From IMG/VR virus record IMGVR_UViG_3300034061_001194, positions 1 through 47,997 of that record: 47,997 nt of DNA; one strand, written 5' to 3'. This stretch comes from a virus. The stretch's first letter is position 1. The number at the start of each line of letters is the position of its first letter. Positions 17,415-24,653 of the stretch are shown here, piece by piece. Made by a program: the position numbers and the translations under genes. Under the pieces are notes generated by a model. It was not told the origin of the DNA. It was given only the letters and a program-made list of their open reading frames with translations, and did not search any database.

Positions 17415-17478
17415 TGTTGGTGACACGGTCTCTAAACTGCTTGGTTGCAGGGGTCAACCCCCTAAATGCAAAAAATTA
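17415..17478 (-). promoter_or_regulatory. early promoter/leader unit a
   Basis: Minus strand: TAATTTTTTGC tract (17468-17478), GGGGG, -35 TTGACC (17452-17457), 16-bp spacer, -10-like TTAGAG (17430-17435), then a leader CACCAACAACAC and AAGGGA before ATG 17394. The upstream tract lies inside the last codons of the primase-helicase gene. The spacing from tract to -35 equals that of units b and e. Confidence 0.6.
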
Positions 17479-19522
17479 CATGCCCGTTCTTTATTTCGAT
17501 CAGCGGGTCTTTGCGCTTGGCCAGCGACTGGATTGCACGCTCCAGATCGCGGCGGCGCAGGTCGCGCTTCGGTGCCTCTGGCTTGGTCATGGCGGCGAGG
17601 CACTTGTCGAACAGCTCGGCCATAGGTGCGCGCTCGACGCCCTCGTACTCGCTCTCAATGATCTCAAGCACGTGACGCTCCTTCGGACCAAAGCGCTGGG
17701 CCTTGGGGCCGATCTCCTGAACCACCGGCACAGGCACGTCGGCCTCAACGGCAACGCAGCTCGTGATCGCGTCGCCATCGGCGTCAATGCCGACAACAAC
17801 GGTCTCCAGACGGAAGCCCCACTTCAAACCGTCGTCGCCGTCCTTCATCTTGGTGACGCGTATTTCGCGCGTGCCGTTCTCGTACTTCAAGACCTCATGC
17901 TCGGCGTCAGCCGCCGCACGCTTGCCTGACCAGCCACGCACGCCCTTCGACGCGTCCTTACCGCTGTGGTCGACCATCATAATCAGAGCCTCTGTCGCAA
18001 TCTCCAGTGCGCGTGCGTTGCCCAGCGCCAGACCGACGTCCTCGGAGCTGTTCTCGTTCGCGCCCGGCGTGACCTGCGCCATCGTGTCAACGATGATGAC
18101 GTCCGCGCCGCCGGATGCGGAAATGGCCCCAGCCAGATCGGTCACGTCCTCGGACAGCAGGAAGTTCGGCGGCACAGTCAGCAGGCCAATGTCAACCTCG
18201 TTGGGGTCGATGTCGTAATAGTCTGCATACGCCTTGAGACGCTTGCTCATGCCCTTGCCACCCTCGGCGGCCACGATAAGGACGCGGCCCCTCTGGGTGC
18301 GGTTGCCGCGCCACGCAACGCCGCGCGCAATGGCGTAGGCCATGTCTATGGCCACGAACGTCTTGCCTGAGCCTGACGCACCGAACAGCACGACGAGGCC
18401 CCTGTCGGGCAGCACGTTCTTAATCCGCCAGCCCCCCGGCTGTAGCACAACGCTGGCTGCCAGCGACGTGATAGGGAAGCGGCCGGTGTAATCTTCGGGC
18501 GTGAACATGCCCAACGTAGGCGTGGCGGCAACCGTGCTCATTGCTGCGCGCAAGTCGTCAACAGTTGCCGCCAAGGTGGGGCGCGGGGTGGGTGCGCCTG
18601 CCTCCTTTGCCATCTTCAATACGGACGCCATGGTCACCTGACGGTGGCCTGAACCCTTGCGGCGTTCGAAGCTGTCCCACTGTGTCCGTAAACCTTCTTC
18701 ACTCGGATACTTCGACCCGTCCGAGGACCAGTCGTTCCAGATCTCAAAGCCTGTGTCGTCGCCGTCGCACTCGTGGTGCAGGGCCATGCCGACCCTGATC
18801 CAGTCCTCGCGTGACATGTCCGCGTCGAGCACGGACAGCAGCTCTTCCATCTGGGCGATGCTCAAGCCGATCTTCGGCTCGCGTCCGGCCATGAAGTCGT
18901 CGGGGTCAGCTTCGCGCTGCTGCGTCGCGGCAAAGCGCGCCGCGCAGAGCGGTGCGACCAGCGCGTCCAGATCGGCCACGGTGTCCTCAAGACCGAGCAA
19001 GTCGGTGTAGGGCATGGCGTTGCCGGTGAAGGTCACGAAGCCGTTGCTGGTGAATACTTCAAAGCCGTAGGGTTTGCCCTTGCTCTCTGACTTACGGTTG
19101 CCGTAGGAGCCGCGCACGAAGGCACGGATGCCCTTACCGCTGGGTGAGTACTCGGCGTAAGTCTGGCTGGCAATCTGCTCGATCTCTGGCGGCAGCTTAC
19201 CCTGCGCATCGACGCAGTTGTCGAAGTCGAGGGCCGTGATGCCGAACTCGGGCATGAGCGCCAGACCGACGCCAGTGAAGCCACGGCGCGCTGCCGCGTC
19301 ACGTGCGGCGGCGAAGGTGGTCATGCGGCCACGGTCGTCTAGGCCGCCCTGCTTGCCGTGGCGCTTGCCGCCGTCGGCGTAGTAGGGCACCTTCAGCGGC
19401 TTGCCGTTGGGGTTGTCGGGATCTTGCTCGAACCGCCAGATAAGCCAGCCCTGTAACTCCCGCAGTTCGGCGGGTGCCTGCACGGACGTGTTGTGCGGTG
19501 TGATTGGCTGTACGTTGCCCAT
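17462..19522 (-). CDS. PrimPol/PriCT primase fused to RecA-like hexameric helicase
   Basis: This is a 686-residue protein. ATG 19522 has a GGAGGG site at good spacing; an upstream ATG at 19543 (seven residues longer) has none. The N-terminal primase-polymerase-like region has ALDFDNCVD (98-106) and YSPSGKGIRAFVRG (125-138). A PriCT-2-like region covers about 218-305 (LSVLDADMSREDWIRVGMAL, then WNDWSSDGSKY). The RepA/AAA_25 ATPase has Walker A GASGSGKT (381-388), VLIVAAEGG, Walker B VIIVDTMAQVTPG, and VDHSGKD with GWSGKRAAADA. A winged-helix-like C-terminal tail follows. It should prime and unwind DNA for the phage polymerase. Confidence 0.88.
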   Translation of the reverse strand: MGNVQPITPHNTSVQAPAELRELQGWLIWRFEQDPDNPNGKPLKVPYYADGGKRHGKQGGLDDRGRMTTFAAARDAAARRGFTGVGLALMPEFGITALDFDNCVDAQGKLPPEIEQIASQTYAEYSPSGKGIRAFVRGSYGNRKSESKGKPYGFEVFTSNGFVTFTGNAMPYTDLLGLEDTVADLDALVAPLCAARFAATQQREADPDDFMAGREPKIGLSIAQMEELLSVLDADMSREDWIRVGMALHHECDGDDTGFEIWNDWSSDGSKYPSEEGLRTQWDSFERRKGSGHRQVTMASVLKMAKEAGAPTPRPTLAATVDDLRAAMSTVAATPTLGMFTPEDYTGRFPITSLAASVVLQPGGWRIKNVLPDRGLVVLFGASGSGKTFVAIDMAYAIARGVAWRGNRTQRGRVLIVAAEGGKGMSKRLKAYADYYDIDPNEVDIGLLTVPPNFLLSEDVTDLAGAISASGGADVIIVDTMAQVTPGANENSSEDVGLALGNARALEIATEALIMMVDHSGKDASKGVRGWSGKRAAADAEHEVLKYENGTREIRVTKMKDGDDGLKWGFRLETVVVGIDADGDAITSCVAVEADVPVPVVQEIGPKAQRFGPKERHVLEIIESEYEGVERAPMAELFDKCLAAMTKPEAPKRDLRRRDLERAIQSLAKRKDPLIEIKNGHVIFCI

Positions 19523-20430: not shown

Positions 20431-20494
20431 GTTGTTGGTCCGCCTGCAATACACAAGTTGATTGCAGATGCAATACCCCTACGGCAAAATAATT
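20431..20494 (-). promoter_or_regulatory. early promoter/leader unit b
   Basis: Minus strand: AATTATTTTGC tract (20484-20494), GGGG, -35 TTGCAT (20468-20473), 16-bp spacer, -10-like TATTGC (20446-20451), then the leader GGACCAACAACGAAGGGAT. TCTGCAAT and ATTGCAGG form an inverted repeat across the spacer, a possible operator. Confidence 0.6.
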
Positions 20495-20712: not shown

Positions 20713-20921
20713 TTATCCCGTTTACGTTTAACCATGGTGCCGCTGATGTACTCAATGTCGTGCGCGTACTCGATGGCGGCGATCTGCTGGGCCTCTGTCA
20801 TGGGGCCGTGCGTCTTGCCTGCCGCCAAGATGGCGGCGCACAAGTCCTTAGAGCCAAGGGTGGCCGCCAGCCTGAAGTCGGTGTCGCCCTTGACCGACAC
20901 GTATAGCTCCCGCTGCGTCAC
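20709..20921 (-). CDS. hypothetical protein, 70 aa
   Basis: This is a 70-residue protein: MTQRELYVSVKGDTDFRLAA, then TLGSKDLCAAILAAGKTHGP, then a helix (TEAQQIAAIEYAHDIEYI) and a basic tail (VKRKRDK). The ATG overlaps the end of the dnaA-like frame (ATGA). No family was recognised. Confidence 0.6.
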   Translation of the reverse strand: MTQRELYVSVKGDTDFRLAATLGSKDLCAAILAAGKTHGPMTEAQQIAAIEYAHDIEYISGTMVKRKRDK

Positions 20922-21163
20922 GCTGTAGGCTCCGCGTCGAGCAGCGCCTCAACGAACTCCTCGACTGTCGGCTGGCCGTGCCACTCTTCGAAGTCGTCGG
21001 CGCACTCGCCGCGATAGTCGTTGGAGCGCTCCCACATATACTCTTCGCGGATCAGCTCCAGCTTGGCCTCGTGCTCAAGCGAGAACTCGTCGTCCGTGCG
21101 GTAGTGCGCAATGATCTGCGGAAGCAGTGTCGCAACGCGTTCGTCTTTGGTCCAGTTGATCAT
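20918..21163 (-). CDS. probable separate 81-residue gene nested in frame at the 3' end of the dnaA-like ORF
   Basis: ATG 21163 is preceded by GAGGACGACAAA and by the conserved leader CGGACCAACAAC, exactly as at other early gene starts. The product starts MINWTKDERVATLLPQIIAH, continues with an acidic helix (LEHEAKLELIREEYMWER) and ends FVEALLDAEPTA. I do not recognise it. It shares the frame and stop of the dnaA-like ORF. Confidence 0.55.
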   Translation of the reverse strand: MINWTKDERVATLLPQIIAHYRTDDEFSLEHEAKLELIREEYMWERSNDYRGECADDFEEWHGQPTVEEFVEALLDAEPTA

Positions 21164-21442
21164 TTTGTCGTCCTCTTGTTGTTGGTCCGACTTCCCTACA
21201 ACCAGTTCGTTGCAGGTGTCAACATGTTTATTTAACGCATGCACGATGGTACTATGATCGCGGCCCATCACCCGGCCGATCTCGGTCGTTGAGTAGTTTT
21301 TCTCCCGCAGCATCAGGATGCACAGGCGGCGCACAGCCACCAGATGCTTCGTCCGCGACTTGCCGAGGATGTCCTCGACCGTGTAGCCGTGCTCCTGCGC
21401 GATGACGTCTATGGCGGCGAGGTTCTTCTCTCTGGGTGTCAT
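20918..21442 (-). CDS. DnaA domain IV-like protein, apparently fused to a downstream gene
   Basis: This is a 174-residue frame. ATG 21442 overlaps the upstream stop (ATGA). Residues 1-73 form DnaA domain IV: ailing helices with IAQEHGYTVEDILGKSRTKH, ARRLC-like VRRLCILMLREKNYSTTEIG, and the DnaA signature GRDHSTIVHALNK. It would recognise DnaA boxes but lacks the AAA+ domain, so it may act as a competitor or as a phage origin binder. After residue 73 the frame runs through promoter/leader unit c, with a second good ATG and ribosome site at 21163, into an unrelated acidic domain. So either this is a fusion protein, or the DnaA part has lost its own stop and the second part is also made separately. 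Confidence 0.75.
   Translation of the reverse strand: MTPREKNLAAIDVIAQEHGYTVEDILGKSRTKHLVAVRRLCILMLREKNYSTTEIGRVMGRDHSTIVHALNKHVDTCNELVVGKSDQQQEDDKMINWTKDERVATLLPQIIAHYRTDDEFSLEHEAKLELIREEYMWERSNDYRGECADDFEEWHGQPTVEEFVEALLDAEPTA
21180..21222 (-). promoter_or_regulatory. early promoter/leader unit c, inside the dnaA-like frame
   Basis: Minus strand: -35 TTGACA (21217-21222), 16-bp spacer, -10-like TGTAGG (21195-21200), leader CGGACCAACAACAAGAGGA. CCTGCAAC and GTTGTAGG form an inverted repeat over the spacer. The G-run seen in units a, b and e is missing, and the -10 is weak. Confidence 0.5.
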
Positions 21443-22326: not shown

Positions 22327-22565
22327 GCTGGTTCTCCGTGATGTTTGCCGTCCTCGATGGCATTGGAAAAGAGGATAACCAACGCCTGCGCTTCGGGCAT
22401 GTGCGGGTTAAGTTTGGCGTTCTTGCGCAGCCACGCCACGGTCGCGGCGCGCTCTTGTTCTGCGCCGTCGCGCATCAGCGCGTCGGCAGCCTCCCAAGAC
22501 CGTTCGTACCCCTTGATAAGATCGGCGCAGGCGTGCATCCACTCCTGTCGGCTTAGTGCGGTCAT
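22323..22565 (-). CDS. hypothetical protein, 80 aa
   Basis: This is an 80-residue helical protein: MTALSRQEWMHACADLIKGY, then ERSWEAADALMRDGAEQERA, then ATVAWLRKNAKLNPHMPEAQ. The start overlaps the previous stop (ATGA). No family was recognised. It is within the operon driven by promoter unit d. Confidence 0.6.
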   Translation of the reverse strand: MTALSRQEWMHACADLIKGYERSWEAADALMRDGAEQERAATVAWLRKNAKLNPHMPEAQALVILFSNAIEDGKHHGEPA

Positions 22566-22825
22566 GCTCCCACCCTTTCCTGATTGCCGATGTGCAGTGC
22601 CTCTTCGAGCAGCTCCTCGCGCAGCGTGTGCAGGGCGTTCAACCGGTCGAAGTGGGTGGTGCGGTCGTCGATGAACCGGTCACGCTCGCAGATGTAGTCG
22701 CGGCCGTTCGGCGTGACCTGCTTGAGCGCCTCAATGGCGTCCAGCAGTGCGTCCATCGCGTCGCGGCGGGGCTGGATGAGGTCGGCTGCGCTGCTGCCGC
22801 TGATGCTGAGTGTTGGTCGTATCAT
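22562..22825 (-). CDS. hypothetical protein, 87 aa
   Basis: This is an 87-residue protein, first gene after promoter unit d, with AAGGGAT before the ATG. It reads MIRPTLSISGSSAADLIQPR, then a helix (RDAMDALLDAIEALKQVTPN) and DYICERDRFIDDRTTHFDRL with a helical end. The function is unknown. Confidence 0.6.
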   Translation of the reverse strand: MIRPTLSISGSSAADLIQPRRDAMDALLDAIEALKQVTPNGRDYICERDRFIDDRTTHFDRLNALHTLREELLEEALHIGNQERVGA

Positions 22826-22846: not shown

Positions 22847-22888
22847 TGTTGGTCTGATCGTCTGTAAACAGTTTGAGGGCTTGGTCAA
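22847..22888 (-). promoter_or_regulatory. early promoter/leader unit d
   Basis: Minus strand: -35 TTGACC (22883-22888), 16-bp spacer containing GCCCTCAAAC, -10-like TACAGA (22861-22866), leader GACCAACAACGAACTAAGGGAT. CTGT-TT-ACAG at the -10 is a small inverted repeat. The GCCCTCAAAC in the spacer is shared with unit e. Confidence 0.55.
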
Positions 22889-22897
22889 GCGCCTATT

Positions 22898-23371
22898 TCA
22901 GTCCTCCTTAAAATCCGCGTACTTCATGATTTCTTTGCGGACGCGCTCGATTGAGGCCTTGCGCTTGGCGATTGAAGCGCCGAGGTCGATGTCGCGGAAC
23001 CTTTCATTGTCCACATCGGCTCTCTGGTATGTGTACAGGGCGAGGACGTGCGTCTCGTAGGCCAGCAGCAGGCTGTTCAGCTCAACGCGGCGCGTGTGCC
23101 TCGTTACCTCTGGCGGTGGCGGAAACTTTGATTTCGCGCACCAGATGGCCTCCTTGATTTCACTGAGTGTCTTGCGGCCTATGCCGTGCTGCTTGTGGAG
23201 CTGCTTGTCGATCAGCGTCTTCAGGGCGTCGTATAGGGTGCGCACGCCGCCCTTCTTGAGTGCGTTGAGCGTTCGCACGCTCAGATTGACGTCGTCGATG
23301 CTGATGTGTTTCAACCGCTCGTCGAGTTCGGTGTTCATCGCCTTCATTCTGGCTTGGACATCTAAGGTCAT
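22898..23371 (-). CDS. RNA polymerase alpha-CTD-like protein
   Basis: This is a 157-residue protein. Residues 22-79 align with the C-terminal domain of bacterial RpoA: IDDVNLSVRTLNALKKGGVR, then TLYDALKTLID, then GIGRKTLSEIKEAI. Residues matching E. coli alpha R265 (here R33), N268 (N36), G296 (G65) and K298 (K67), which contact UP-element DNA, are kept; S299 is Thr. A second, charged helical domain follows (about 85-157), with no alpha N-terminal assembly domain. Such a protein could bind UP-like DNA and replace or block host alpha-CTD (inference). An AGGAGA site lies before the ATG. Confidence 0.8.
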   Translation of the reverse strand: MTLDVQARMKAMNTELDERLKHISIDDVNLSVRTLNALKKGGVRTLYDALKTLIDKQLHKQHGIGRKTLSEIKEAIWCAKSKFPPPPEVTRHTRRVELNSLLLAYETHVLALYTYQRADVDNERFRDIDLGASIAKRKASIERVRKEIMKYADFKED

Positions 23372-24227: not shown

Positions 24228-24653
24228 TTTGTGTACCCTTTCTTGTGTTGGTCCGATTATCTATACACGGGTTTGAGGGCATGTAAAGCCCTCATACGTA
24301 AAAAATTACATGTGTTACATTTGTTTGCAATTAGGTGGTTTACACCGTCTGGAATGCACCATGCAACCAAAGCGTTTACACCGTGACCTATGACGCACCA
24401 TGGTGCATGACAGTGCACGGTGCAATACTGCACCATCACGACCAACCCACGGGGTATAGGTAGAACCTACCCGGGGGGTGGTGTGGGTGGTGCACCCAAA
24501 ATTTCGTGGTGTAGTGCAGATCGAAATGGGTCAGTAAAAAAGTCGAACCTCGAACTGTACCACCGTCTGTCCCACCACCTGATGGCGTGGTGCACGTAAC
24601 ATATTGCGTCCAACCTCGGATGATGATATTCCTAAAGCACTAGGGGAATAGAA
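24228..24653. other. divergent control region with GGTGCA/TGCACC array
   Basis: This 426-base gap separates the leftward early block from the rightward late block and holds no convincing gene. Besides promoter unit e, it has a direct repeat GTTTACACCGT (24338-24348, 24374-24384) and the palindrome GCACCATGGTGC (24395-24406). It also has GGTGCA-ATAC-TGCACC (24419-24434), GGTAG-AAC-CTACC (24459-24471), GGTGCACC (24489-24496) and further TGCACC/GGTGCA at 24355 and 24589. This is the usual position for operators and possibly a replication origin. I saw no perfect DnaA box. Confidence 0.6.
24246..24308 (-). promoter_or_regulatory. early promoter/leader unit e (best match)
   Basis: Minus strand: TAATTTTTTAC tract (24298-24308), GGG, -35 TTTACA (24282-24287), 16-bp spacer, -10 TATAGA (24260-24265), leader CGGACCAACAC and AAGGG. 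GAGGGC-TTTACAT-GCCCTC is an inverted repeat around the -35, a possible operator. It drives the whole leftward early block. Confidence 0.65.

Follow-up and report, generated by a model that had tools for sequence, protein, structure and literature searches.

A phage-encoded RNA polymerase alpha-CTD without an alpha-NTD as a possible competitor at UP-type promoter tracts

Phages that modify, remove or bind the C-terminal domain of the host RNA polymerase alpha subunit (alpha-CTD) have been described. The stretch of viral DNA analysed here (hereafter the window; 47,997 nucleotides, IMG/VR record IMGVR_UViG_3300034061_001194) raises a different question, namely what a phage would do with an alpha-CTD of its own. 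The window belongs to a tailed phage, related most closely among isolates to the Caulobacter phages RW, KcrB, RLK and GB2A (terminase 60% identical), and it is organized in two divergent blocks: every predicted gene between 9468 and 24227, except one weak 36-residue call, is read leftward and the block comprises replication and small early-type genes, while the rightward block, from 24654, encodes terminase, portal and structural proteins. The alpha-CTD gene lies within the leftward early-type block and is read from promoter P1 (see below), with a Shine-Dalgarno-like AGGAG preceding its ATG. Comparison with two relatives yields dN of about 0.02 against dS of 0.11-0.12, indicative of purifying selection, and we therefore consider the gene both real and constrained. 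The gene, its two modules and a recurrent neighbour are as follows.

22898..23371, minus strand: open reading frame for a 157-residue phage protein with an alpha-CTD (PF03118) and a C-terminal helical hairpin; dN/dS about 0.17
23144..23323, minus strand: alpha-CTD domain, residues 17-76, in which R33, N36, G65, K67 and E71 correspond to E. coli R265, N268, G296, K298 and E302
22916..23113, minus strand: C-terminal helical hairpin, residues 87-152, with a conserved LELNSLLLAYETHVLALYTYQ-type segment and no structural match
22562..22825, minus strand: 87-residue neighbour without a Pfam match, close to the alpha-CTD gene in the majority of relatives as well

Two further elements of the locus deserve mention in their own right. 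The divergent blocks are separated by a 427-bp gap (24228-24653) rich in TGCACC/GGTGCA palindromes, a candidate replication origin or regulatory hub, and relatives carry other repeat units at the same gap (TGTTGCA in L011, GCAGCATGCTGC in L015). The product of the gene at 20918-21442 resembles DnaA domain IV in its helix-turn-helix (Bac_DnaA_C, E 2e-15) but has no DnaA ATPase domain.

The assignment of the alpha-CTD fold, put forward in the preliminary description together with a proposed structural overlay, is borne out by both homology and modelling. Residues 17-75 score 44.4 bits against PF03118 (E 1.4e-11; curated cut-off 23.8), and among proteins of solved structure bacterial alpha-CTDs come closest in sequence (phmmer, 3.4e-6). 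An AlphaFold2 model of the 157-residue protein, built from an alignment of 33 phage sequences (mean pLDDT 80.9, pTM 0.44), features helices arranged as in alpha-CTD and superposes onto the Mycobacterium tuberculosis domain (8hih_G) at 1.4 Å over 54 aligned columns, with a TM-score of 0.82 by target length. The Foldseek E-values for the same model are weak (0.38 for 8hih_G, 0.16 at best), as may be expected for a small domain loosely joined to another. A match to PHROG 1660, 'PmgS-like head morphogenesis' (E 3.4e-5), covers only the helix-hairpin-helix part and is uninformative as to function, since a bacterial alpha-CTD matches the same family. In the Pfam scan of the protein, HHH_5 remained below its cut-off (17.7 bits), no enzyme domain was detected, and Sigma70_r4 gave no match at E≤10.

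What the protein shares with the bacterial domain is thus the fold, a helix-hairpin-helix with its G(K/R)K motif and equivalents of R265, N268, G296, K298 and E302. Unlike bacterial alpha, it lacks the alpha-NTD, the linker and any RNA polymerase assembly domain: the NCBIfam rpoA model reaches 39.9 bits, below its cut-off of 227.8, and aligns through its C-terminal part only, in agreement with the earlier claim that the alpha-NTD is missing, and the protein would therefore be unable to enter RNA polymerase as an alpha subunit. It further differs from the bacterial alpha-CTD by a one-residue insertion after helix 2, the absence of the GLxLGM tail, a basic net charge, its phage origin and the added helical hairpin. 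The latter corresponds to the extra C-terminal helical domain proposed earlier, which we can now delimit as a predicted hairpin of residues 87-152 (block pLDDT 78-96 at residues 91-150). Its LELNSLLLAYETHVLALYTYQ-type segment is strikingly conserved in the family, and neither the PDB nor the viral library yielded a convincing match to the hairpin.

The protein is not an isolated case. About 16 related phage contigs encode it, three of them with near-identical proteins; profile searches assign L011-L018 to the family at 45-63% identity over the domain, and a hairpin search adds L059, L060, L062, L063 and L064, all with the alpha-CTD plus hairpin architecture, while the tails of L016-L018 differ from the hairpin. 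The profile search also recovered about 33 more distant alpha-CTD-bearing phage proteins. Eleven of the 27 distant proteins scanned carry Sigma70_r4 and make up another and larger group of such phage proteins (L021, L022, L025 and others among L024, L030, L033, L035, L037, L039, L041, L042 and L051). These resemble the window protein in being phage-encoded alpha-CTDs outside RpoA, but in L022 and L025, for example, Sigma70 region 4 lies upstream of the CTD, whereas the window protein has no Sigma70_r4 and carries its own C-terminal hairpin. Five longer proteins (L019, L020, L026, L038 and L047; about 440-720 residues) have an internal alpha-CTD with G296 replaced by S and S299 by C, substitutions with which UP-type DNA binding has possibly been lost.

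Several apparent relatives were set aside. Seven tblastn matches among INPHARED 'phage' records (OR846589, OR847224, OR848276, PQ520304, MT837710, MT839982 and MT839537) are likely bacterial rpoA contamination, the four that we opened (OR846589, MT837710, MT839982 and MT839537) containing alpha-NTD sequence or a bacterial-type CTD. Among plasmids, alpha-CTD-type annotation was found only as rpoA itself, and genome contigs returned one distant match, in Clostridia (L052). ORF40 of an Erythrobacter phage (OL955261, 41542-42063), annotated as an RNA polymerase alpha CTD protein, has no PF03118 match at E≤1 and relatives that are annotated otherwise; its name appears wrong and is all that it has in common with the window protein.

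Does the domain retain the means to bind DNA? The preliminary description had paired R33, N36, G65 and K67 with E. coli R265, N268, G296 and K298 and had concluded that the UP-element-binding residues are kept. Alignment to E. coli and Caulobacter-type alpha references, themselves checked against PDB chains 1lb2 and 7ye1, agrees with the pairing and adds E71 at E302, but the conclusion holds only in part: N294 is replaced by G, C269 by A and S299 by T in the window protein, and half of the family members compared have K or R at position 268. As N294 participates in DNA contact in E. coli (PMC5511352), the contact set of the window protein is, as aligned, incomplete. Across ten family sequences the equivalents of L262, V264, R265, K271, G296 and E302 are invariant, position 298 is always K or R, and position 268 is always N, K or R (K in L011, L012, L015 and L016; R in L018). 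Because the N268A/W/D/T substitutions in E. coli alpha harm function and damage UP-element activation (PMC11434276), relatives with K or R at this position may read DNA differently, and a basic side chain could still meet the backbone. The net charge of the domain ranges from +1 to +6 in the family, compared with -1 in E. coli and -2 in Bacillus subtilis, and would therefore suit DNA binding without a polymerase tether. Given the retained R265-type surface and this basic charge, autonomous binding to the A/T-rich minor groove is the simplest reading of the domain.

Candidate targets are found in the phage genome itself. Comparison of leader regions identified P1 (24287), P3 (22888), P4 (20473) and P2 (17457), four promoters that all point leftward, have related cores and share the leader CCAACA. 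Three of these carry an A/T tract upstream of the -35 element, a feature of the phage promoters that had been noted before.

24260..24287, minus strand: P1 core, TTTACA-16-TATAGA, which starts the leftward block with the alpha-CTD gene
24300..24312, minus strand: P1 A/T tract CATGTAATTTTTT, with TGTAATTTTTT at -58 to -48; non-coding
22861..22888, minus strand: P3 core, TTGACC-16-TACAGA, immediately following the alpha-CTD gene; T tract absent in the 12-nt register
20446..20473, minus strand: P4 core, TTGCAT-16-TATTGC
20486..20494, minus strand: P4 A/T tract, the variant AATTATTTT, at the same 12-nt spacing as in P1 and P2; overlaps a 3' coding end
17429..17457, minus strand: P2 core, TTGACC-17-TAGAGA, upstream of the SSB, DUF2800, DNA polymerase and SNF2 block
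17470..17482, minus strand: P2 A/T tract CATGTAATTTTTT; overlaps the 3' end of the primase gene

The 13-mer CATGTAATTTTTT occurs exactly twice in the window (simulated expectation 0.0), each copy 12 nt upstream of a -35-like hexamer, and with the hexamer counted as -35 to -30, TGTAATTTTTT falls inside the distal UP subsite, defined as -58 to -45 (PMC2613000). The spacing recurs beyond the window: in 18 records, T6 stands most often 12 nt ahead of a TTG-type hexamer (9 cases, versus 0-5 at other spacings), and T6-N12-TT[GT][AC][AC] matches 10 times in seven larger related genomes versus 0-1 times in each of 20 simulations, although a few of the matches look like chance by context. The P2 tract is kept in G003, G008, G011 and G016, while those of G005 and G006 are A/T-rich and depart from the T6-12 rule, the G006 tract being interrupted. 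Coding overlap can explain part of the conservation at P2 and P4; in G011, nevertheless, a second, non-coding T6 follows the primase stop at the right spacing in addition to the coding T6 at the primase tail, which argues for selection on the promoter. As a generic sigma70 scan returned fewer promoter-like sites than shuffled sequences, P1-P4 rest on the locus-to-locus comparison.

We also considered whether the tracts occur where the gene does. In RLK, the gene and a T6 at the syntenic P2 are both missing, yet T6 tracts are present in another intergenic region, and since the contrast comes from a single lineage (RLK and its close sisters) and the P2 tracts are partly coding, we give it no weight. 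The tracts are a plausible target for the phage protein and should be equally usable by the host alpha-CTD; because host RNA polymerase would use the same tracts, they are not specific evidence for the phage protein as their binder. The -35 of P1 lies within an inverted repeat, GAGGGC-TTTACAT-GCCCTC (24275-24293), and P2 features AGGGGGTTGACCCCT at 17449-17463. Relatives likewise have a TAGGGG-like block immediately preceding the -35, which may be an operator for another regulator.

We tentatively propose that the protein is a DNA-binding alpha-CTD mimic that would displace the host domain from UP-type tracts. Three other readings share most of the remaining probability. The best placed, if improbable, is that the alpha-CTD copy acts as a decoy at the protein level, titrating host activators or sigma region 4, with DNA binding secondary. 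The alpha-CTD is indeed a hub for activators (PMC11434276), the K271 and D259 equivalents are invariant, and N268 is more variable than the fold; however, conservation at the 287- and 273-type positions does not follow that of bacterial alpha, whereas R265, G296, E302 and a basic residue at 298 are conserved.

Marginally harder to sustain, and less likely than competition, is direct activation, whereby the protein would bind the P2 and P4 tracts and recruit host RNA polymerase, through either a 261-type surface contacting sigma region 4 or the hairpin, thus switching on the replication genes. In E. coli, D259 and E261 contact sigma70 R603 (PMC5511352), and in the phage family the D259 equivalent is invariant and E261 is kept in most members; in addition, P2 lies upstream of replication genes and its tract is kept in four relatives. 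The window protein itself, however, has N at E261, and the same tract is present at P1, which must fire before any of the protein exists. Moreover, the distal subsite, where the tracts are found, is one turn farther from sigma than the proximal site, a position that would leave a free alpha-CTD far from sigma and makes competition easier to picture than activation. Least likely of the three is a role in replication or DNA architecture instead of transcription, with the protein as a helix-hairpin-helix binder of the origin-like repeats at 24228-24653: the P1 tract adjoins the palindrome region, which holds other repeat units in L011 and L015, and the DnaA domain IV-like protein is encoded nearby, but the domain is specifically alpha-CTD-like (44 bits for PF03118 versus a sub-threshold HHH_5) and the tracts stand in a fixed register with -35 hexamers.

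In the competition model that we tentatively favour, the protein would be made early, as its place in the leftward block suggests, and act as an autonomous mimic of the polymerase alpha-CTD. Its R265-type surface would bind A/T-rich minor-groove sites of the UP-element type and displace the host alpha-CTD at the phage early promoters P1, P2 and P4, and probably also at host UP elements, while the C-terminal hairpin could serve in dimerization or in contacting RNA polymerase. UP-dependent transcription would then be lowered after early expression, much as T4 ModA is thought to achieve chemically: ModA modifies Arg265 and abolishes UP interaction, and damping of host and early phage promoters has been proposed as the consequence (PMC2988021). 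Rac, in turn, causes the host alpha-CTD to be lost late in infection (PMC7552054). T4 Alt/ModA and the phiKMV-type Rac resemble the present case in the proposed interference with alpha-CTD/UP-element contacts; nevertheless, the former are ADP-ribosyltransferases and the latter is acetyltransferase-like, both acting on host alpha, and they share no domain with the window protein. ModA and Rac are thus precedents for the outcome, by analogy and not as evidence of kinship.

The alpha-CTD itself is already known, while a separate phage protein combining it with an added hairpin appears undescribed; in the open-access literature searched we found no work on the function of a phage alpha-CTD standing alone, which is weak evidence as subscription papers fall mostly outside that search. 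What may be at hand, though we hold it as no firmer than a working model, is a phage family that has captured an NTD-less alpha-CTD and reads UP elements with it in dominant-negative (or replacement) fashion, with T-tract promoters to match in its own genome. A phage equipped with its own alpha-CTD copy would differ in strategy from those that modify, remove or bind the host domain: if the model is true, transcription of both host and phage would be switched through a copy of the DNA-gripping polymerase domain and not through its modification. With a family of such proteins and tract-bearing promoters in hand, the idea is directly testable, and the protein could provide a natural dominant-negative reagent for UP-element-dependent promoters, including those of the alphaproteobacteria, home of the Caulobacter phage relatives.
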